DNA of 64,000 bases. Source: Mesonia aquimarina. Its GTDB lineage: Bacteria; Bacteroidota; Bacteroidia; Flavobacteriales; Flavobacteriaceae. The stretch is taken from the NCBI RefSeq assembly GCF_003667275.1, contig NZ_RCNV01000013.1:1-64000 (forward strand), read 5' to 3'. Shown here piece by piece: positions 1 to 8,561 of the stretch; within the stretch, counting starts at the first letter, position 1; every line of letters starts with the position of its first letter. Below the pieces are notes generated by a model. The model was not told the DNA's origin, did not search any database, and worked only from the letters and a program-made list of their open reading frames with translations. The position numbers were made by a program, and so were the translations under genes.

Positions 1-182
1 TTGATCGCTATGGAAAGCTGCTTAAACAGTTAAGTCCGAGTGGTCCGGGATGGGATGGAACCTATAATGGTAATCCGGTATCGTCTAATGACTATTGGTT
101 TAGAGTAGAGTATATGGAAACTCTGCCCGATGGTAGTTTGCAACCAAGAGAGTTTAAAGCGAACTTTACACTAAAAAGATAA
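1..182 (+). CDS. C-terminal end of a T9SS-secreted protein (type B sorting domain), 5' end outside the window
   Basis: The open frame enters from the left edge (first full codon at 3) and encodes 59 residues before TAA. The piece reads DRYGKLLKQL, then GWDGTYNG, NDYWFRVEY and FKANFTLKR at the end. This is the usual end of the gliding motility-associated (type B) C-terminal domain of Bacteroidota: a beta strand, the GWDGTYNG turn, a YWF strand and a basic last strand. That domain directs a folded passenger through the type IX secretion system. The passenger lies outside the window and its function cannot be judged. A 13-bp perfect inverted repeat follows directly. Confidence 0.85.
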   Translation, partial: DRYGKLLKQLSPSGPGWDGTYNGNPVSSNDYWFRVEYMETLPDGSLQPREFKANFTLKR

Positions 183-186
183 AAAC

Positions 187-234
187 AACAAAATTTTAGG
201 ATCAGTTTAAAAGACTTGGTTCTAAAATTTTGTT
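187..234 (+). terminator. Intrinsic-type terminator of the T9SS-secreted protein gene
   Basis: Arms 187-199 and 222-234 are perfect complements (AACAAAATTTTAG / CTAAAATTTTGTT); the stem can extend inward with G-U pairs. It starts 5 nt after the stop at 182. The downstream stretch is AT-rich rather than a clean T-run. The right arm also contains the TTTG that looks like the -33 element of the next promoter. Confidence 0.65.
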
Positions 235-258
235 ATTAAATTTTAATTTATATATTTG
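229..258 (+). promoter_or_regulatory. Promoter of the arginine operon (Bacteroidota type)
   Basis: TTTG at 229-232 and TATATTTG at 251-258 are separated by 18 nt, matching the -33 TTTG / -7 TAnnTTTG consensus known for Bacteroidota. Transcription would start only a few bases past 258, at or next to the ATG of the first leader peptide at 264. This is by far the best-formed promoter in the window. Its position directly before an Arg-rich leader ORF supports both calls. Confidence 0.7.
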
Positions 259-263
259 ATGAT

Positions 264-323
264 ATGATTTTAAAGAGGAACATAGCTAATTCATTTTACC
301 GCCGCCGCTGTCGCCGTGACTAA
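264..323 (+). CDS. Arginine operon leader peptide 1 (19 aa)
   Basis: ATG at 264, TAA at 321-323. The 19 residues are MILKRNIANSFYRRRCRRD: five of the last seven are arginine (codons CGC CGC CGC, TGT, CGC CGT), plus one AGG early on. Such an arginine run in a tiny ORF directly before an arginine operon is the hallmark of a leader peptide for ribosome-mediated attenuation. With little charged tRNA-Arg the ribosome would stall at 300-317 and change folding of the downstream leader RNA. There is no Shine-Dalgarno sequence, and the promoter places the RNA start almost at the ATG, so it may be translated leaderless. The GC-rich Arg codons stand out in AT-rich flanks. Confidence 0.75.
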   Translation: MILKRNIANSFYRRRCRRD

Positions 324-370
324 TTACCTGTGCGATTGTAACTCATTTTCTTTTTTAAAATTATTTTCTT

Positions 371-475
371 TTGAAATTCATCTTATCATTATTTTCTTTT
401 TACTCTACATCCTGTATTTCACACCGGGTATTTAGACGTGTTTATTTATTTCGCCGCCGCTTGGCGCGTATATAG
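371..475 (+). CDS. Possible second Arg-rich leader peptide (34 aa, TTG start)
   Basis: A second open frame in the same leader runs from TTG at 371 to TAG at 473-475. It begins MKFILSLFSFYS and ends HRVFRRVYLFRRRLARI, with seven arginine codons among its last 17 codons. The three consecutive CGC codons at 452-460 lie in the same 10-base string, CGCCGCCGCT, that carries the Arg codons of leader peptide 1 (300-309). The stop lies 7 nt before the hairpin at 483-511, the place expected for a controlling leader peptide. There is no ATG and no obvious ribosome site, so translation is uncertain. The arginine bias may also be a by-product of RNA pairing constraints. Confidence 0.4.
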   Translation: MKFILSLFSFYSTSCISHRVFRRVYLFRRRLARI

Positions 476-482
476 TTTGTAT

Positions 483-511
483 GGAACTCAGGTGAGTCCG
501 GTTCTTTTTTT
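483..511 (+). terminator. Attenuator terminator hairpin in the arg leader
   Basis: GGA(A)CTC at 483-489 pairs with GAGTCC at 494-499, leaving one bulged A and an AGGT loop. GAAC 484-487 could instead pair with GTTC 501-504. A run of seven T follows at 505-511. It lies 46 nt before the first structural gene and would end transcription when the antiterminator cannot form. The stem is short, so strength is uncertain. Confidence 0.5.
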
Positions 512-557
512 CATCCCTTTATCATTTAAACTCTAATTTTTTAATTCTTTGAATCCA

Positions 558-1184
558 ATGAAAATAGTCATTGCGAATCAATCGCATATCTCTTATGCAC
601 AAGAGATATGTGATTTGGTTAAACTATCAGCAAAAGCACGAGGCACCGGTATAGCAGAGCGTTCTCCTTCTTATCTCAAGGAAAAAATGTGTAGTGGGAA
701 TGCTGTCATTGCCCTTGACGAGGAGCAATTTGTGGGCTTTTGTTATATAGAATCATGGGATCATCAACAATATGTAGCCAATTCCGGTTTAATTGTTCAT
801 CCTGATTATCGTTATAAAGGAATTGCCAAGGATATTAAGAAAGCTGTATTTAAGCTTTCGAGAGAAAAATATCCAAAGGCAAAAATTTTCGGGATTACTA
901 CCGGTTTGGCAGTGATGAAAATCAATTCTTCTTTAGGATATCGACCAGTTTCTTTTTCGCAGTTAACAAAAGATGAACGCTTTTGGGACGGTTGTCAAAC
1001 CTGTAAAAATTATGATATTTTAAATAGAACCAATCGTCAAATGTGTTTATGCACAGGAATGGTTTATGACCCCTCAGAAGAAGGAACATATACATCAAAA
1101 AAAATTAAAGAAAAGACCTATCAACGCTTAAAAACGATTAAGCAAACTCTATTTAATAAAAAAAATAAAACCAATAAATCATGA
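558..1184 (+). CDS. GNAT-family N-acyltransferase, first gene of the arginine operon (ArgA-type role)
   Basis: The 208-residue protein has the GNAT fold: beta strands at about 50-80 and the acyl-CoA loop RYKGIA at 85-90. As the first gene of a complete arginine operon lacking another N-acylglutamate synthase, it most likely transfers an acetyl or succinyl group from CoA to glutamate. A cysteine cluster, CQTC at 146-149 and CLC at 163-165, follows the GNAT core and may bind metal; the C-terminus is very lysine-rich. An in-frame TTG at 549 would add three residues, but I chose the ATG at 558. The stop overlaps the argG start (ATGA, 1181-1184), so the genes are translationally coupled. The acyl group cannot be read from sequence. 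Confidence 0.75.
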   Translation: MKIVIANQSHISYAQEICDLVKLSAKARGTGIAERSPSYLKEKMCSGNAVIALDEEQFVGFCYIESWDHQQYVANSGLIVHPDYRYKGIAKDIKKAVFKLSREKYPKAKIFGITTGLAVMKINSSLGYRPVSFSQLTKDERFWDGCQTCKNYDILNRTNRQMCLCTGMVYDPSEEGTYTSKKIKEKTYQRLKTIKQTLFNKKNKTNKS

Positions 1185-2371
1185 ATAAAAAGAAAGTTGT
1201 CTTAGCCTATAGTGGAGGACTCGATACCTCTTATTGTGTACATCATTTAGCTCATGAAAAATCTTTAGATGTTTATGCAGTTAGTGTAAATACAGGAGGT
1301 TTTTCATCAGATGAACTAAAGGAAATGGAAAAAATGGCATTTCAATTAGGAGCTTATCATTTCGATGCCTTAGAGGCAGAGCAAGATTATTACCAAAAAA
1401 TCATTAAGTTTTTAATTTTTGGAAATGTATTAAAGAATAATAATTATCCGCTTTCGGTAGGAGCAGAGCGAGTACTTCAAGCGATTATGCTTGTAAAATA
1501 TGCTCAACATATAGGAGCAGATTTTATAGCCCACGGAAGTACAGGAGCTGGAAATGATCAAGTGAGATTTGACGTTATTTTTCAAATCTTAGCCCCGGAA
1601 ATACGCATTCTTACTCCAATTCGAGATCAGGGTTTGAGTAGAGAAGAAGAAATAGAATATTTACAAAATCACGGGATTCAACTAAACTGGTATAAAGCTC
1701 AATACTCTATTAATACCGGGTTATGGGGTACTAGTATAGGCGGAGCAGAAACCCTAACAAGTGATCTTCCTTTACCGGAAGAAGCTTTTCCTGTTCCTTT
1801 ACGAAAAAAGAATCCATTACCGATTGAATTGCATTTTGAACAAGGAGAGTTAAATGGTGTAGATACCAAAAAGGGAAGTTCGGTGGAAATGATTCAATAT
1901 TTAGAAACCATAGCGGCTCCTTATGCTATTGGTAGAGATATACATGTGGGCGATACCTTAATCGGAATAAAAGGTCGTGTGGGATTTGCGGCAGCTTCAG
2001 CCTTACTTATTATTGCAGCGCATCAACTCTTAGAAAAACATACCCTTAGCAAATGGCAATTACAGCATAAAGATTACATAGGAAAGTGGTATGGGACCCA
2101 TCTTCATGAAGGACAATATTTAGATCCGGTCATGCGTGATTTTGAAGCTTTATTAGCGACTTCTCAACAAAGAGTAAGCGGAAGTGTTTTTATCACCTTA
2201 CATCCTTATCGTTTTACACTTGATGGAATTAAATCTGATTATGATCTTTTAGAAAATACTTTTGCTCATTATGGAGAAACCAATTCAGCTTGGTCTGCCA
2301 ATGATGTAAAAGGTTTTATTAAGTTGTTCTCTATTCCCGGAAAACTCTATCAATCTGTAACCCATAACTAG
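1181..2371 (+). CDS. argG: Argininosuccinate synthase
   Basis: Joins citrulline and aspartate with ATP in the cytoplasm to give argininosuccinate, the next-to-last step of arginine synthesis. The 396-residue length fits the family. The N-terminal PP-loop AYSGGLDTSY (9-18) binds ATP pyrophosphate, and the HGSTGAGNDQVRF segment (about 117-129) is the typical substrate region. The start overlaps the previous stop by four bases, and argC begins one base after its stop. Placing argG near the front, before argC, is the usual Bacteroidota order. Nothing is missing or truncated. Confidence 0.96.
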   Translation: MNKKKVVLAYSGGLDTSYCVHHLAHEKSLDVYAVSVNTGGFSSDELKEMEKMAFQLGAYHFDALEAEQDYYQKIIKFLIFGNVLKNNNYPLSVGAERVLQAIMLVKYAQHIGADFIAHGSTGAGNDQVRFDVIFQILAPEIRILTPIRDQGLSREEEIEYLQNHGIQLNWYKAQYSINTGLWGTSIGGAETLTSDLPLPEEAFPVPLRKKNPLPIELHFEQGELNGVDTKKGSSVEMIQYLETIAAPYAIGRDIHVGDTLIGIKGRVGFAAASALLIIAAHQLLEKHTLSKWQLQHKDYIGKWYGTHLHEGQYLDPVMRDFEALLATSQQRVSGSVFITLHPYRFTLDGIKSDYDLLENTFAHYGETNSAWSANDVKGFIKLFSIPGKLYQSVTHN

Positions 2372-2372
2372 T

Positions 2373-3329
2373 ATGATAACAGTTGGAATTATTGGAGGTA
2401 GTGGTTATACAGGTGGTGAATTAATACGACTTTTATTACAGCATGCACAAGTGGATATTCGTTTTGTGTATAGTACCACTAAAGTAGGAATGCCTATTGA
2501 AAAGATACATCAGGATTTAATAGGAGAAACAACATTGATGTTTACAGATAAGATAGTTGCTGATGTCGACCTTGTTTTTTTATGTGTTGGACACGGGAAA
2601 TCTAAAGAGTTTTTACAAAAACATACGTTTAGTGAAACGACTAAAATTATTGATTTGAGTACTGATTTTCGGATGGAACATCAAAATCATGATTTTGTAT
2701 ACGGCCTACCGGAAGTCAATAAAGCTTTAATTATGCAATCTAATTTTATTGCTAATCCCGGATGTTTTGCAACAGCCATAAACCTGGCTCTTTATCCAGC
2801 AATCAAACATTTACAATTAGACGATGTACATATTCACGCGGTAACCGGAGCCACCGGTGGAGGTGCTCGTTTAGATGAAAAACAACATTTTTCCTGGCGT
2901 AGCCAGAATTATTCAAGTTATAAGATTTTTCAGCATCAACATGAGCGAGAAATATTACAGCTTTTTTCTAGATGTAAAGTAGTTCCGCAGTTAAACTTTA
3001 TTCCCCATAGAGGAAGCTTTGCTCGCGGCATTTATGTGACCTGTTATACGCAATTTTCAGGCGATCTAGCCCATGTAATCCAATTGTATGAATCATTTTA
3101 TCAAGATGCGCCTTTTACGATAAGATCTGGTATAGCACCCCATTTAAAACAAATAGTGAATACCAACAAGTGTCTACTGCATATTCAGCATATAAATGAT
3201 AAACTGGTTATTACCAGCATGCTTGATAATTTATTAAAAGGAGCTGCCGGACAAGCCGTTCAAAATATGAATCTCATGTTTGGTTTTGAAGAGACTACAG
3301 GACTAAAATTAAAAGGAAGCTATTTTTAA
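2373..3329 (+). CDS. argC: N-acetyl (or N-succinyl)-gamma-glutamyl-phosphate reductase
   Basis: Reduces the N-acyl-glutamyl phosphate made by ArgB to the semialdehyde with NADPH. The N-terminal nucleotide site is GIIGGSGYTGGEL at 5-17. The catalytic cysteine is C131 in NPGCFAT, and GATGGGARL follows in the substrate domain. At 318 residues it is of the short ArgC form. It is separated from argG by one base and from argD by 11 bases, so it is co-transcribed. Which acyl group it sees depends on the pathway form discussed under argF'. Confidence 0.95.
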   Translation: MITVGIIGGSGYTGGELIRLLLQHAQVDIRFVYSTTKVGMPIEKIHQDLIGETTLMFTDKIVADVDLVFLCVGHGKSKEFLQKHTFSETTKIIDLSTDFRMEHQNHDFVYGLPEVNKALIMQSNFIANPGCFATAINLALYPAIKHLQLDDVHIHAVTGATGGGARLDEKQHFSWRSQNYSSYKIFQHQHEREILQLFSRCKVVPQLNFIPHRGSFARGIYVTCYTQFSGDLAHVIQLYESFYQDAPFTIRSGIAPHLKQIVNTNKCLLHIQHINDKLVITSMLDNLLKGAAGQAVQNMNLMFGFEETTGLKLKGSYF

Positions 3330-3340
3330 AATCAACACTT

Positions 3341-4483
3341 ATGAAACTATTTGATGTATATACAACTTTTTCAGTTCAACTTGCTCAGGCAAAAGGCTGC
3401 TATCTTTATGATGATGAAGGAAAACAATACCTTGATTTTTATGGCGGCCATGCAGTAATTTCTATAGGACATAATCACCCGGTATATTGCCATGCGCTAC
3501 AGGATCAATTGGGTAAATTAGCCTACTATTCCAATGCAATAGATAAACCCATACAAGAAAAATTAGCTAAAAGTTTGGGAGAGGCTTCTCATTGTCAAGA
3601 TTATCGTTTGTTTATGTGTAATTCCGGTGCGGAAGCAAATGAAAATGCGTTAAAGCTAGCTTCTTTTGCAACCGGAAAGTCGCGTATTGTTTATTTTGAG
3701 AATGCTTTCCACGGTCGGACATCCGCTGCTGTTTCGGTGAGCGATCAAGAAAACTTGAAGTCACCTTTAAACAAACATAATCCTGTAACAAAGTTAAGCT
3801 TTGGTCAAGTTGATGAATTAGAAGCGATTTTAACAAAAAATGATGTTGCGGCTGTTATTATAGAAATAATTCAAGGAGTAGGAGGATTACATGAAGCTTC
3901 TACTCATTATTACAAAAAAATACAACAACTATGTAAGGATCATAAGGTCATATTTATCGTTGATGAAGTACAAAGTGGCTGGGGTAGAACCGGAAAATTT
4001 TTTGCTTTTCAGCATCATGGACTACAACCTAATCTTATTAGTATGGCAAAAGGAATGGGGAATGGCTTTCCGGTGGGAGGCGTACTGATTGACCAATCTT
4101 TTTCTGCTTCTCATGGCATGTTGGGGACCACCTTTGGAGGAAATCAACTCGCTTGTGCTGCCAGTTTAGCCGTTTTGGAAACATTACAAAATGAACAATT
4201 ATTAATTAACGTAGCAGAAATGTCTTCGCTTTTTTGTAAAAAAGCATTGGCTATACCTGCTATTAAAGCAATAAAGGGACGAGGCTTGATGTTGGGGTTA
4301 GTTTTTGATTTTGACGTAAAACTCCTTCGAGAATGCTTAGTATACGATTATCAAGTTTTTACCGGCGCAGCCACTCCTAAAAACATGCTACGAATTTTAC
4401 CTCCTTTAACGGTGACAAAAAAACAAATACAAGAATTTTTTACGGCACTAGAAGCTGCTCTCTTGCAATTAAACTTAACTTAA
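3341..4483 (+). CDS. argD: N-acyl-ornithine aminotransferase (class III)
   Basis: PLP enzyme that converts the N-acyl-glutamate semialdehyde to N-acyl-ornithine with glutamate as amino donor. Class III motifs are clear: SGAEANENALKLA near 96-108, the FHGRT segment, IVDEVQSGWGRTG near 206-218, and the PLP lysine K237 in MAKGMGNGFP. The length of 380 residues is normal. It sits 11 bases after argC and 8 bases before argF'. The enzyme family often also handles succinyl-diaminopimelate, so a second role in lysine synthesis is possible. Confidence 0.94.
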   Translation: MKLFDVYTTFSVQLAQAKGCYLYDDEGKQYLDFYGGHAVISIGHNHPVYCHALQDQLGKLAYYSNAIDKPIQEKLAKSLGEASHCQDYRLFMCNSGAEANENALKLASFATGKSRIVYFENAFHGRTSAAVSVSDQENLKSPLNKHNPVTKLSFGQVDELEAILTKNDVAAVIIEIIQGVGGLHEASTHYYKKIQQLCKDHKVIFIVDEVQSGWGRTGKFFAFQHHGLQPNLISMAKGMGNGFPVGGVLIDQSFSASHGMLGTTFGGNQLACAASLAVLETLQNEQLLINVAEMSSLFCKKALAIPAIKAIKGRGLMLGLVFDFDVKLLRECLVYDYQVFTGAATPKNMLRILPPLTVTKKQIQEFFTALEAALLQLNLT

Positions 4484-4491
4484 AGATAACC

Positions 4492-5436
4492 ATGAAACAT
4501 TGTACTTCATTATCAGATATAACTGATGTTCAGCAAGTAATCGATCAAGCGATAGCGATCAAACAACATCAGAATAGTGCTCCTATTGGAAAGGGTAAAA
4601 CACTAGGCTTACTTTTTTACAATCCCAGTTTGAGAACACGTTTGAGTACTCAAAAAGCTGCTCGCATGTTAGGGATAGAAGTTATTGTTATGAATATTAA
4701 TAAGGAGGGATGGACATTAGAATTTGAAGAAGGAGCCTATATGAATCACCAAACTTCTGAGCACATTAAAGAAGCTGCCGGGGTTTTATCATGTTATTGT
4801 GATATTATTGGTATTCGTATTTTTCCTTTGTTTAATTCTAAAGCAGAAGATGAACAAGAGCTCGTTTTAAATTCCTTTAAAAAGTATTGTACTATACCGG
4901 TGATTAATTTAGAGAGTGCAACGGCTCATCCCTTACAAGGCTTAACTGACGCGATGACAATTCAAGAATTTAAGATTGAAAAACCTAAAATAGTAATGAC
5001 TTGGGCTCCCCATCCTTCCGTATTGCCACAGGCGGTTCCTAATTCTTTTACGGAAGTAATGAATCAATTATCTATGAAGCATTCTATATGTAATCCTTCT
5101 ACTCATAATTTGGCTCCCCATATTGTACAATCTACACCTGTATTTAATGATCAGGCAGAAGCCTTGAAAGATGCAGATATCGTTTATGTTAAAAACTGGG
5201 GAAGTAACACCTATTATGGAGAAAAATTTCCTATTGATAGAAAATGGACATTTACGCTTGCAAAATGGAAATTAACCAATCAAGCTAAAGTATTGCATTG
5301 TTTGCCGGTAAGGAGAAATGTAGTAATAGAAGATGCTGTTTTGGATGGGAGTCAAAGTGCTGTTTTGAATCAAGCTGAAAACCGAACGTATATAGCTGCC
5401 AGTATATTAACCGAACTTTTACAAGCTAACTTATGA
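4492..5436 (+). CDS. argF': N-acyl-ornithine carbamoyltransferase (N-succinyl/N-acetylornithine type)
   Basis: Carbamoylates N-acyl-ornithine to N-acyl-citrulline, the step that sets the Bacteroidota and Xanthomonas pathways apart from the common one using free ornithine. The carbamoyl phosphate loop reads NPSLRTRLS (44-52), where ordinary ornithine carbamoyltransferases carry a STRTR-like loop. HPLQGL lies near 142-147 and HCLPVRRNVV near 279-288. Length is 314 residues. From memory, the residue that decides succinyl (Pro) or acetyl (Glu) preference precedes EHI; here it is S89 in QTSEHI, so substrate choice is open. The argB start overlaps its stop (ATGA). Confidence 0.9.
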   Translation: MKHCTSLSDITDVQQVIDQAIAIKQHQNSAPIGKGKTLGLLFYNPSLRTRLSTQKAARMLGIEVIVMNINKEGWTLEFEEGAYMNHQTSEHIKEAAGVLSCYCDIIGIRIFPLFNSKAEDEQELVLNSFKKYCTIPVINLESATAHPLQGLTDAMTIQEFKIEKPKIVMTWAPHPSVLPQAVPNSFTEVMNQLSMKHSICNPSTHNLAPHIVQSTPVFNDQAEALKDADIVYVKNWGSNTYYGEKFPIDRKWTFTLAKWKLTNQAKVLHCLPVRRNVVIEDAVLDGSQSAVLNQAENRTYIAASILTELLQANL

Positions 5437-6206
5437 AAGGTTTACATATTATAAAAGTAGGGGGGAGCGTGCTCAGCGATAAAAAAAGTATAGCCACTCT
5501 TTTGGATGATTTTGTAGCTTTAAAAGGAGCGAAGATTTTGGTTCATGGAGGAGGAAATGTAGTTACGGAAACAGCGTTAAAACTAGGCTACACCACTGAA
5601 ATGATTGAAGGAAGACGTATAACCTCAGATGCGATGATGGAGGTAGTGAGTATGGTTTGTGGTGGGCTCCTCAATAAAAATGTCGTAGGATGCTTACAAG
5701 CAAGATCGTGTAACGCTATAGGCCTATGCGGAGCGGATGGAAAAAGTATCCTCTCAAAAAAACGTCTATCTGCCCCTATTGATTATGGACGTGTGGGAGA
5801 TGTTATAGCTATCAATGAAGACTTTATTGTTAATTTGTTAGGAAAAGGATGTGTACCTGTATTTTCTCCTATCACGATGGATGGAGCCGGGAAATTGCTG
5901 AACACTAATGCGGATACTATAGCAGCTCAGCTTGCCATTGCACTCACCCCATATTTTAGGGTTCATCTAACTTTCTGTATCGATAAACCAGGTGTATTGA
6001 GTGATCCGCTCGATAATATGTCTGTGGTTCCATTCCTAAATCGAGATACTTATCAAAAGATGTTAGCTCAAAAAATAATTTCGCAAGGTATGCTCCCTAA
6101 ATTGGAACAGTCTTTTAAGGCACTAGAAAGATATGTGCATCAAGTGTGTATAGGAGGATGTAATGGATTAAAATCAACTCAAAAAAACACTAAAATAATA
6201 TTATAA
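5433..6206 (+). CDS. argB: N-acylglutamate kinase
   Basis: Phosphorylates the gamma carboxylate of N-acyl-glutamate. The amino acid kinase fold is shown by KVGGSVLSDK (8-17), HGGGNVVTE near 38-46, the substrate motif GRRITSDAMMEV near 60-71 and a NTNADTIAAQLA segment near 152-163. At 257 residues it is the compact form. It lacks the N-terminal helix that many arginine-inhibited hexameric enzymes carry, so feedback inhibition of this enzyme may be weak, which would fit transcriptional control at the leader. It overlaps argF' by four bases and shares one base with argE. Confidence 0.93.
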   Translation: MKGLHIIKVGGSVLSDKKSIATLLDDFVALKGAKILVHGGGNVVTETALKLGYTTEMIEGRRITSDAMMEVVSMVCGGLLNKNVVGCLQARSCNAIGLCGADGKSILSKKRLSAPIDYGRVGDVIAINEDFIVNLLGKGCVPVFSPITMDGAGKLLNTNADTIAAQLAIALTPYFRVHLTFCIDKPGVLSDPLDNMSVVPFLNRDTYQKMLAQKIISQGMLPKLEQSFKALERYVHQVCIGGCNGLKSTQKNTKIIL

Positions 6207-7270
6207 TGGATTTAAATGAATTATATGATGATGCTATCAAATTATTAAAAGAAATGATAAGCACTCCTTCTTTTTCTACCCAAGAATCGAGGACTGCAGA
6301 ACTTCTGGAAGCGTGGTTTGAAAAGTATTCTATTCCTTATCAACGATCAAATAACAATGTTTGGGCAATACAAAAAAATCATGGAGAGGCTAAACCTGTA
6401 GTGCTACTAAATTCGCATCACGATACGGTACGTCCTGCAAAATCTTATACTAAAGATCCATTTAATCCTCTCATTGAAGATGGAAAATTATACGGATTGG
6501 GAAGTAATGATGCCGGAGGATGTTTGGTTTCTTTGTTAGCGGTTTTTACCTATGCTTATCATCAAGATTTAACTTATACTCTTGTATTTGCAGGAACTGC
6601 TGAAGAAGAGATTAATGGAAATCAGGGAATCAGTAGTATTATTCCGAAACTCCCTGTACTGACTGCGGCAATTGTAGGAGAACCTACTCAAATGCAGATG
6701 GCTATTGCGGAGCGTGGTTTATTGGTTATTGATGCTTTTATAAAAGGAACAGCTTCTCATGCAGCTCATCCTAATACCGATAACCCTATTTTAAAGACTG
6801 CTGATTTTTTAAATAAATTGCAAAAGCTCACTTTTGATCGTATTTCTCCATTATTAGGAGAAGTTAACCTTAGTGTGACTCAAATTCATGCAGGTGAGCA
6901 ACACAATGCTATTCCAGATGAAGTCCATTTGGTAATAGATGTACGGGTGAATGATTGTTACTCCTTGGAAGAAGTTTTTACTATCTTAGCCCAAGAATTT
7001 GTCGCAGCTCGTTTTCAAGCACGATCTTTCCGATTACAACCTTCTATTGTTTCTTCTGCACATCCTTTAGTACAAACCGCCGAAAAACTTGGTGTGCTAA
7101 CCTATGGATCTAATACATTATCTGATCAAGCGCTCTTAACCTGCCCTTCTGTTAAAATGGGCCCCGGAAATTCCCTTCGTTCGCATACGGCAGATGAATT
7201 TATTTACCTGCATGAGATTAAAGAGGGAATACAAGCTTATATTAATCTATTATACAATTTAACTTTTTAA
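6206..7270 (+). CDS. argE: M20-family deacylase (ArgE-type)
   Basis: Zinc hydrolase that removes the acyl group from N-acyl-citrulline (or N-acyl-ornithine). The M20 metal motifs are H72 and D73 in NSHHDTV, D102 in GSNDAGG and the acidic pair in GTAEEEING near 129-137. Length is 354 residues with a dimerisation domain at about 165-270. The ATG shares its A with the argB stop. No argJ gene exists here, so the acyl group is hydrolysed rather than recycled and the first enzyme must supply it afresh each round. M20 members are broad; the operon context makes the ArgE call firm. Confidence 0.9.
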   Translation: MDLNELYDDAIKLLKEMISTPSFSTQESRTAELLEAWFEKYSIPYQRSNNNVWAIQKNHGEAKPVVLLNSHHDTVRPAKSYTKDPFNPLIEDGKLYGLGSNDAGGCLVSLLAVFTYAYHQDLTYTLVFAGTAEEEINGNQGISSIIPKLPVLTAAIVGEPTQMQMAIAERGLLVIDAFIKGTASHAAHPNTDNPILKTADFLNKLQKLTFDRISPLLGEVNLSVTQIHAGEQHNAIPDEVHLVIDVRVNDCYSLEEVFTILAQEFVAARFQARSFRLQPSIVSSAHPLVQTAEKLGVLTYGSNTLSDQALLTCPSVKMGPGNSLRSHTADEFIYLHEIKEGIQAYINLLYNLTF

Positions 7271-7280
7271 TACCTGTTAT

Positions 7281-8561
7281 ATGAAACTTTGGGAAAAAGG
7301 TCACTCTATTGACAAAAAAATAGAACAATTTACAATCGGTAATGATCGAGAATTAGATCGTTACCTAGCCAAGTATGATCTACAGGCTTCGATAGCTCAT
7401 GCGTATATGTTACAAGAATCGGATTTACTTACAAAAAAAGAAAATCACGCCTTGATAAAAGTGCTGGAAAAGCTACAAAAACAAGTAGAATCCGGAGACT
7501 TTCATATTGAAAAATCATTTGAAGATGTACATTCTAAAATTGAATATGAATTAGTACAAAGTTTAGGAGCAACCGGAAAGAAAATACACACCGGACGATC
7601 ACGTAATGATCAGGTTTTGGTGGCCATGCTATTGTTTTTTAAAGATCATCTTGGGCATCTACAAGAGCAACTTATAACCTTAATTGAACTTTTATTACAG
7701 CTTTCAGAAAAACATGAAAAAGCTTTTTTGCCTGGCTATACTCATTTACAAGTTGCTATGCCTTCTTCTTTTGGTTTATGGTTCGCAGCATACGCGGAAT
7801 TACTAATAGATGATTTATATATGATACAAGCAGCCCTAAAAGTAGTAGATCAAAATCCGTTAGGATCTGCAGCAGGATATGGAAGTTCCTTTCCGATAGA
7901 TAGAATGTCTACCACTAAATATTTAGGATTCTCTGCACTAAAAGTTAATGTAGTAGCCGCTCAACTTAGTCGAGAGAAAACGGCAAAAAACATCCATATG
8001 GCTTTATCTTCTGTGGCTCATACTATAGGGAAATTTGCTATGGATGTGTGTTTATATATGAATCCTCATTTTAATTTTATAGGATTGCCAGATTCGTTAA
8101 CCACAGGCTCTAGTATTATGCCTCATAAAAAGAACCCTGATTTATTTGAAGTTATGAGAGGAGAATGTAATAAAATACAAGCAGCTATGTATGAAACTAA
8201 CTTAATTTCAACTAATTTACCTTCCGGATATCATCGTGATTACCAATTGCTTAAGGAAAAAAGTATTTTAAACCTACTTTCTATGGAAAACGTGATTGAT
8301 ATACTCACGTATACGTTACCTCGAATAGAGGTTAAATCTATAGACCAGACTGATCCTGTATATCAATATGTAACTAGCGTAGATGCTATAAATAATCTAG
8401 TGATACAAGGTAAGTCCTTTCGAGATGCCTATCAGCTTATTGCTAATGAAATAAAAGAAGGTACTTATGACTCAAAAGAAACGAAAGCTCATACCCATAT
8501 AGGGAGTAAGGATAATTTAGGAATTGCCATGATCAGAAAAAAGCTTCGTGAGGTTTTGTAA
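7281..8561 (+). CDS. argH: Argininosuccinate lyase
   Basis: Last step: cleaves argininosuccinate into arginine and fumarate. It carries the aspartase/fumarase superfamily signature GSSIMPHKKNPD at 276-287 with the catalytic serine in the mobile loop, the TGRSRNDQV segment at 104-112, and H155 in GYTHLQ. Length is 426 residues, slightly short of the common 450-470 because the C-terminal part is compact. It begins 10 bases after argE and is the last gene of the operon; two terminators follow. Confidence 0.95.
   Translation: MKLWEKGHSIDKKIEQFTIGNDRELDRYLAKYDLQASIAHAYMLQESDLLTKKENHALIKVLEKLQKQVESGDFHIEKSFEDVHSKIEYELVQSLGATGKKIHTGRSRNDQVLVAMLLFFKDHLGHLQEQLITLIELLLQLSEKHEKAFLPGYTHLQVAMPSSFGLWFAAYAELLIDDLYMIQAALKVVDQNPLGSAAGYGSSFPIDRMSTTKYLGFSALKVNVVAAQLSREKTAKNIHMALSSVAHTIGKFAMDVCLYMNPHFNFIGLPDSLTTGSSIMPHKKNPDLFEVMRGECNKIQAAMYETNLISTNLPSGYHRDYQLLKEKSILNLLSMENVIDILTYTLPRIEVKSIDQTDPVYQYVTSVDAINNLVIQGKSFRDAYQLIANEIKEGTYDSKETKAHTHIGSKDNLGIAMIRKKLREVL

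Follow-up and report, generated by a model that had tools for sequence, protein, structure and literature searches.

How arginine synthesis is controlled in Mesonia aquimarina is the question raised by the DNA ahead of its arginine operon, at the start of a contig of the 3.28 Mb genome. The window, as the term is used here, is the whole stretch analyzed, the first 64,000 nucleotides of that contig, and the features of the leader and operon described lie on its forward strand. The operon (555-8561) consists of a GNAT acetyltransferase gene and seven more arginine-pathway genes. The product of the first gene (555-1184) scores above the Pfam cut-off for GNAT and has no NCBIfam model above cut-off; we infer from its operon position that it is argA-like. 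Downstream, NCBIfam identifies argG, argC, argD, an N-acetylornithine carbamoyltransferase, argB, an ArgE/DapE deacylase and argH (1181-8561), with argC, the carbamoyltransferase, argB and argH above cut-off and argG, argD and the deacylase as best hits below it. The genome also encodes Rho. The end of a gene 5' of the leader (1-184), presumably a gliding-motility/type IX secretion C-terminal domain, has seven further genomic matches of 67-96% identity and varying length.

Control by ArgR was considered and rejected. The ArgR C-terminal domain (PF02863) was found in 0 of 60 genomes of the same order, 54 of them at least 90% complete, and is absent from the genome of the window; the same search was positive in 8 of 14 control genomes, including a Bacteroides. 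An earlier note, made from the letters of this DNA, had proposed that the operon is governed by a ribosome-mediated attenuator with Arg-rich leader peptides, and the positions it gave for the parts of that leader proved accurate. A Bacteroidota-type promoter has TTTG at 229-232 and a -7 box, TATATTTG, at 251-258; we take TAnnTTTG to be the Bacteroidota -7 consensus. ORF1 (264-323; ATG 264, TAA 323) encodes leader peptide 1, MILKRNIANSFYRRRCRRD. ORF2 (371-475; TTG 371, TAG 475) encodes leader peptide 2, MKFILSLFSFYSTSCISHRVFRRVYLFRRRLARI, with the end FRRRLARI. The hairpin P1 (452-468) carries conserved Arg codons in its 5' arm and a CGCC GCTT GGCG core at 455-466. The hairpin P2 (483-505) has a stem of six pairs, a bulge ending at A490, and a core (491-499) of GG/CC pairs closing a UGAGU loop, and it runs into seven T residues at 505-511. 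The string CGCCGCCGCT indeed occurs twice, at 300-309 and 452-461, as does AACTCA, at 340-345 and 485-490.

The leader recurs across the family. Fifty loci, the window and 49 related ones, were selected solely by similarity to the first gene, and 41 of them carry the P1-P2 pair at E<=0.01 under a covariance model of these two 3' hairpins built from 18 leaders. The nine without the pair (L022, L023 and L026-L032) comprise one member of the same genus and otherwise other families. Within the genome the leader is the only strong match to the model (442-512, E 7e-16); the next, at 0.004, lies in an ABC-transporter gene. Among 397 sampled genomes of the family Flavobacteriaceae, a protein search found the first gene in 266 and the model matched 258 at E<=0.1, and in a sample of the phylum 35 of 395 genomes reached 0.01, with all matches better than 1e-8 in Flavobacteriaceae. 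A pattern scan of named genomes matched at least 119 stretches; among the matches listed are Maribacter, Zobellia, Winogradskyella, Robiginitalea, Cellulophaga, Arenibacter, Yeosuana and Kordia, one Capnocytophaga metagenome bin and two records named Flavobacterium sp. Neither P1/P2 nor a clear Arg-rich leader ORF was seen in the 260 nt 5' of the gene in seven sampled members of g146, a genus taken to be Flavobacterium; two of these genomes carry a weak frame that contains three Arg. No Rfam covariance model matched window positions 1-1200 at E<=1 or ten related loci at E<=0.1, and no membership of the T-box or any other Rfam family was found.

The hairpins were compared in 109 leaders, a set biased to high model scores that includes the best-scoring model matches, so that its counts for P1, P2 and the RRP peptide end are flattered by selection. 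P1 is a CG-rich stem that usually holds a stop codon in its loop. The P2 core reads GGTGWGTCC (RNA GGUG(A/U)GUCC) in 107 of the 109 and GATGWGTTC, a compensatory change, in the other two, and the A directly 5' of it, which ends the bulge, is present in 108. When bulge length was set to maximize pairs, the second stem pair was C-G in 75 leaders, A-U in 20, U-G in 7, U-A in 3, G-C in 1 and unpaired in 3. In an earlier count over 18 leaders a one-column slide scored better on covariation (0.211 versus 0.227), which is put down to the variable bulge. The strong, full P2 element occurs once in the genome; of two other matches, to the bare core, one falls within an ABC-transporter gene. Folding energy does not reach significance on its own (z -0.28/-0.31 in the window and -0.26 to -1.47 in three relatives), and a terminator scan did not report the hairpin at 483-511, probably because of its bulge. 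The possibility that the core serves as a Shine-Dalgarno sequence was rejected: AGGTGA resembles one, but the match is lost in the variants GATGAGTTC and GATGTGTTC, whose pairs are intact.

What the hairpins share with the peptides is position, as Arg-Arg codons lie within the 5' arm of P1 and at a near-fixed distance 5' of P2. The claim of two tandem Arg-rich ORFs withstood comparison. An Arg-rich ORF is found at the place homologous to ORF1 in 70 of the 109 leaders (about 67-70 with ORF1, since L042 is probably false), and L036 and L039 may hold a missed one; the remaining 39 leaders are single. Leaving out L042, L161 and L164 gives 67 tandem leaders, and dropping five more that lack the P1 pattern gives 62 for the frame and start counts of ORF2. 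Of the 62, 61 keep its frame free of stops for 26 codons (12 and 3 do so for the other two frames), and a start codon stands 27 or 28 codons 5' of RR in 57, versus 1 and 0. This conservation, together with the hairpin pair in 41 of 50 protein-chosen loci, excludes chance. The ORF2 start lies at -113 to -127 (TTG 30, GTG 20, ATG 13 and 4 unassigned in the 67 leaders). In its last 12 codons, CGC and CGT make up 405 of 453 Arg codons. For the window's own genes the figure is 194 of 502, a yardstick from one genome set beside leaders from many. The body of ORF2 is A/U-rich and G-poor, with a C/G ratio of 2.1, though C is only 17%.

ORF1 encodes 14-26 residues in the 70 leaders, from ATG in 60, GTG in 7 and TTG in 3, and its stop lies 158-182 nt 5' of the P2 core in all but one; MNSKKNKIRTFSPSLRLRNRRR and MKNLKNKIRCSVPGLPARNYRRCF are examples of the peptide in relatives. 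Its Arg codons are CGC or CGT in 277 of 352 cases, unlike those of the window's own genes. The pN/pS ratio is 0.73 in frame, versus 1.12 and 0.81 in the other frames, a moderate signal from pairs that are not independent. The stops are TAA in 56, TAG in 14 and TGA in none, which may reflect composition. The promoter motif TAnnTTT stands 4-7 nt 5' of the ORF1 start in 50 of the 70 tandem leaders, versus 6% of 2091 control positions, and ahead of an in-frame start in 20 of the 39 single ones; the box is absent from 20 tandem and 19 single leaders. Such spacing suggests leaderless transcripts and makes ORF1 a probable leaderless ORF.

The two frames are joined by a stem, S0. In the window its 5' arm, the start of ORF1 (264-280), pairs with 348-364 in the minimum-energy fold, the duplex having a z of -4.3, and the 3' arm ends 6 nt 5' of the ORF2 start codon. 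Across tandem leaders S0 links the start of ORF1 to a region of about 30 nt directly ahead of the ORF2 start. The duplex averages -11.2 kcal/mol, versus -6.2 for shuffles, with z below -1 in 61 of 67 leaders and above 0 in 2. For the covariation test, the alignment, arm span and composition, pN/pS and the count of Arg at codon 9 or 10, L025 and L021 were left out as well as L042, L161 and L164, leaving 65 tandem leaders. The covariation test compared pairing within leaders with pairing between leaders for 1128 segment pairs along the tandem leader, and S0 was the strongest (z -7.2, its neighbor -5.6). The P2 stem came next at -3.8; because values of opposite sign reach +4.8, S0 alone clears the noise and the P2 stem is not significant in this test. 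A MAFFT/RNAalifold treatment of the full tandem leader missed S0, in a region that it aligned poorly. The median span of the S0 5' arm is 1-40 nt, and Arg occupies codon 9 or 10 of ORF1, within that arm, in 48 of 65 tandem leaders, so that a ribosome stalled there would keep S0 open and free ORF2.

Other pairings fared differently. In the same test, which covers arms set farther apart than those of P1, neither hairpin showed a prominent alternative partner in 65 tandem or 39 single leaders (best value among single leaders, -2.5), and no prominent covariation linked the Arg codons of ORF1 to P1 or P2 in the 65 tandem leaders. The earlier note had looked to related leaders for conserved Arg runs and covarying helices, and had held that alternative pairings are built in through the duplicated segments. 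The Arg runs are kept and S0 covaries, though S0 would gate ORF2 and not P2; the pairings between duplicated segments do not covary. Cross-pairing through CGCCGCCGCT or AACTCA was rejected on that ground, and the duplicated CGC strings follow from the conserved CGC/CGT Arg codons.

The reading we favor, at a probability of about four in five, is that an arginine-responsive, ribosome-mediated leader of attenuator-like design controls the arginine operon. For the window the best reading is a relay of two ORFs through S0. When arginyl-tRNA, mainly that reading CGU and CGC, runs short, a ribosome would stall on ORF1, often at Arg codon 9-10. A stall within the 5' arm would prevent S0 from forming and leave the ORF2 start free. 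A second ribosome could then enter ORF2, stall at Arg-Arg and hold P1 open, and the operon would be expressed. With ample arginine, ORF1 would be read quickly, S0 would close ORF2, P1 and P2 would form, and the operon would be turned down, most likely by premature termination that dispenses with a U-tract and is aided at P2 by Rho or another factor. The A/U-rich, G-poor body of ORF2 and the presence of Rho make Rho-aided termination possible. Relatives with a single ORF would use the second step alone. How P1 and P2 would act on RNA polymerase is the least certain part of this proposal.

An Arg-codon-rich short leader ORF directly 5' of the arginine operon is what an attenuator calls for, and the classical form of attenuation would add that P2 and its U-run make an intrinsic terminator, with the duplicated segments of ORF1 and ORF2 as the antiterminator on stalling. 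The T7 after P2 in the window fits this account, as does the minimum-energy fold of 446-512, which pairs the 5' arm of P1 with the P2 side. A conserved intrinsic terminator was not found, however. At least six T in the eight positions after P2 occur in 7 of 109 leaders, versus 35 of 109 in a control stretch further downstream, so the hairpin with a T7 tail that the earlier note took for a terminator is real in the window and is shared by few relatives, and the intrinsic terminator was rejected as the general mechanism. Cross-pairing of the P1 arm with the P2 core was rejected as well, since eight leaders have CGCAC in place of CGCCC in the P1 arm but an unaltered P2 core, and no other covarying alternative stood out. 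We therefore regard classical attenuation as unlikely here; the same want of a classic antiterminator counts against attenuation in the wider sense too. A different objection is that RNA structure alone matters and that the Arg-rich frames are by-products of CGC-rich hairpins. The RRP codons do coincide with the 5' arm of P1, and the pN/pS of tandem ORF2 lies close to that of the other frames (0.81 versus 1.01 and 0.99, not convincing and a sign of little amino-acid constraint; 0.85 versus 0.92 and 0.76 outside P1). This view is nevertheless very improbable, given the open ORF2 frame and its start codon at a fixed place, an ORF1 that is Arg-rich though far from P1, and the clear signal from the ORF of single leaders, whose pN/pS is 0.58 versus 1.24 and 1.33 over 22 pairs, not independent ones.

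Stalling could also have another cause. TnaC and SpeFL are arrest peptides that respond to a ribosome-bound ligand, and a nascent peptide ending in RRP before a stop codon might likewise stall when free arginine (or ornithine) binds the ribosome, rather than for lack of charged tRNA. The ORF beside P1 ends in RRP in 86 of 109 leaders, followed by TAA in 75 and TAG in 11, and R-R-x-F-P-R-R-P recurs in tandem ORF2. Against this, several leaders read past RRP (for example L020, L025, L100, L135 and L149) and some have RRT...VRV/VRA ends instead; the Arg-Arg codons keep their place, whereas the stop does not, and arrest of this kind appears improbable. A possible, if doubtful, alternative is that P2 alters the translation or decay of the first-gene mRNA and not termination. 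P2 lies 56-71 nt from the first gene in 93 of 102 leaders (seven of the 109 lack a recognized start and were left out), a narrow range that fits translational control and counts against attenuation, and the leader ORF of Salmonella speF affects Rho termination, translation and RNase G decay at once (PMC6386406). Yet no covarying pairing with the first-gene start region stood out, and in three genomes (G121, G383 and G189) the first gene was not found and another gene stands between leader and argG, the P2 element being kept. The replacements begin 116 nt, 155 nt and at least 183 nt 3' of P2. By Pfam that of G383 is a GNAT acetyltransferase and that of G121 has no family, and the G121 gene has no meaningful similarity to the window's enzyme. 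Retention of P2 at a changed distance means that the leader is not bound to the first-gene start, and these replacements speak, indirectly, for control of operon transcription, not of the translation of one gene. A more speculative and rather unlikely elaboration would have the operon open only after two successive checks for arginine starvation, with a leaderless Arg peptide gating the start of a second one through S0, and would have P2 bind an arginine-specific ligand acting in trans, which might even be the Arg-rich leader peptide after its release.

The history of the element was followed on a tree of 71 first-gene proteins, after exclusion of the 38 of 109 leaders without a long enough gene; one row, L091, is a different enzyme on a very long branch. 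The tandem or single state requires 8 changes, versus a shuffled mean of 23, and all 41 tandem rows belong to a single group (support 100/97) whose 52 members include 11 single leaders. If the root of this tree lies among single leaders, the tandem state probably reflects one gain and several losses. The window's own protein sits on a long branch inside the tandem-containing group, and the first gene is present in only 1 of 15 sampled genomes of the genus, so it was either lost in the genus or acquired here. Beyond the reach of the model, Arg-rich leader ORFs with other hairpins occur in L023, of the same genus, and in L027, L029 and L032, of other families; they are less clear in L022, L028 and L030 and were not found in L026 and L031. 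On this evidence the Arg-rich leader principle seems older than P2.

Some individual loci depart from the common layout. By eye, the Arg-rich frames of L023, L027, L029 and L171 lead into hairpins whose loops read UACGU or UCCGU and which may represent another type of P2, of the form U-N-N-G-U. L166 and L175, of genus g196, have a hairpin with GGTGTGTCC some 230-250 nt 5' of the first gene, from which a long additional stretch separates it. Replacement of the first gene by an unrelated or distant one directly 5' of argG, with the P1-P2 element kept, is seen at L298:254-838, at L299:3109-3711 and in L091.

Amino-acid leader-peptide attenuators are well established in Proteobacteria for his, trp, thr and ilv. 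The arginine leader shares with them a short 5' ORF with a run of end-product codons, a biosynthetic operon and hairpins that follow. It differs in its amino acid, in having one or two ORFs, in the conserved P2 motif, in the S0 link between ORF1 and ORF2, and in that no conserved U-tract and no covarying antiterminator were found. Sinorhizobium trpL and the mycobacterial polycysteine ORFs are leaderless and serve, as the probably leaderless ORF1 would, as amino-acid sensors, but they concern other amino acids and phyla and are, so far as is known, single ORFs. The Sinorhizobium peptide peTrpL is reported to act in trans as well (PMC7298713). Leaders of the ermA type have two leader peptides in tandem, with antibiotic-induced stalling and a translational output; serial leader ORFs gated by RNA pairing are common to both, whereas the antibiotic and the output set ermA apart.

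Parallels in the sensing of arginine come from reports compared here by the portions consulted. In the Salmonella speF leader, two consecutive Arg codons of orf34 sense arginine and act through leader folding and Rho; by description, that leader has one ORF and controls ornithine decarboxylase, whereas here the target is arginine synthesis (PMC6386406). In Staphylococcus aureus rbfL, scarcity of arginine makes a ribosome pause at the Arg codons of the leader ORF, but the paused ribosome blocks the next start and so represses, in the translational control of a biofilm regulator (PMC13009471). Within the phylum, Flavobacterium psychrophilum shows strong clues for leader-peptide attenuation ahead of amino-acid biosynthesis operons; the consulted portion of that report names no arginine element or structure, and the sampled g146 genomes are without P1/P2 (PMC9723704). 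The literature searched, within the portions consulted, gives no description of this arginine leader element, and an arginine case among those of F. psychrophilum is possible (PMC9723704).

Taken together, comparison of related sequences indicates that the arginine operon has a genuine leader element found across the family, and it confirms the tandem ORFs and S0. The Arg-codon leader principle, with P1/P2 in Flavobacteriaceae, most likely lets ribosomes sense arginine shortage. Given the conserved tandem Arg ORFs and the negative search for an ArgR domain, the operon may well be controlled mainly by its leader, which would explain how arginine synthesis is controlled in a large family without a detected ArgR domain in the genomes examined. 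Under the more speculative scheme of two checks and a ligand at P2, the leader would stand in for ArgR across a bacterial family. The near-invariance of P2 points to a partner, whether RNA polymerase, Rho, a protein or the peptide. These leaders match no Rfam model and could found a new one. Two ORFs tied by a covarying stem, in about six of every ten leaders examined, offer a test bed for ribosome signaling from one ORF to another, and the element would add arginine to the amino acids under leader-ORF control in Bacteroidota.
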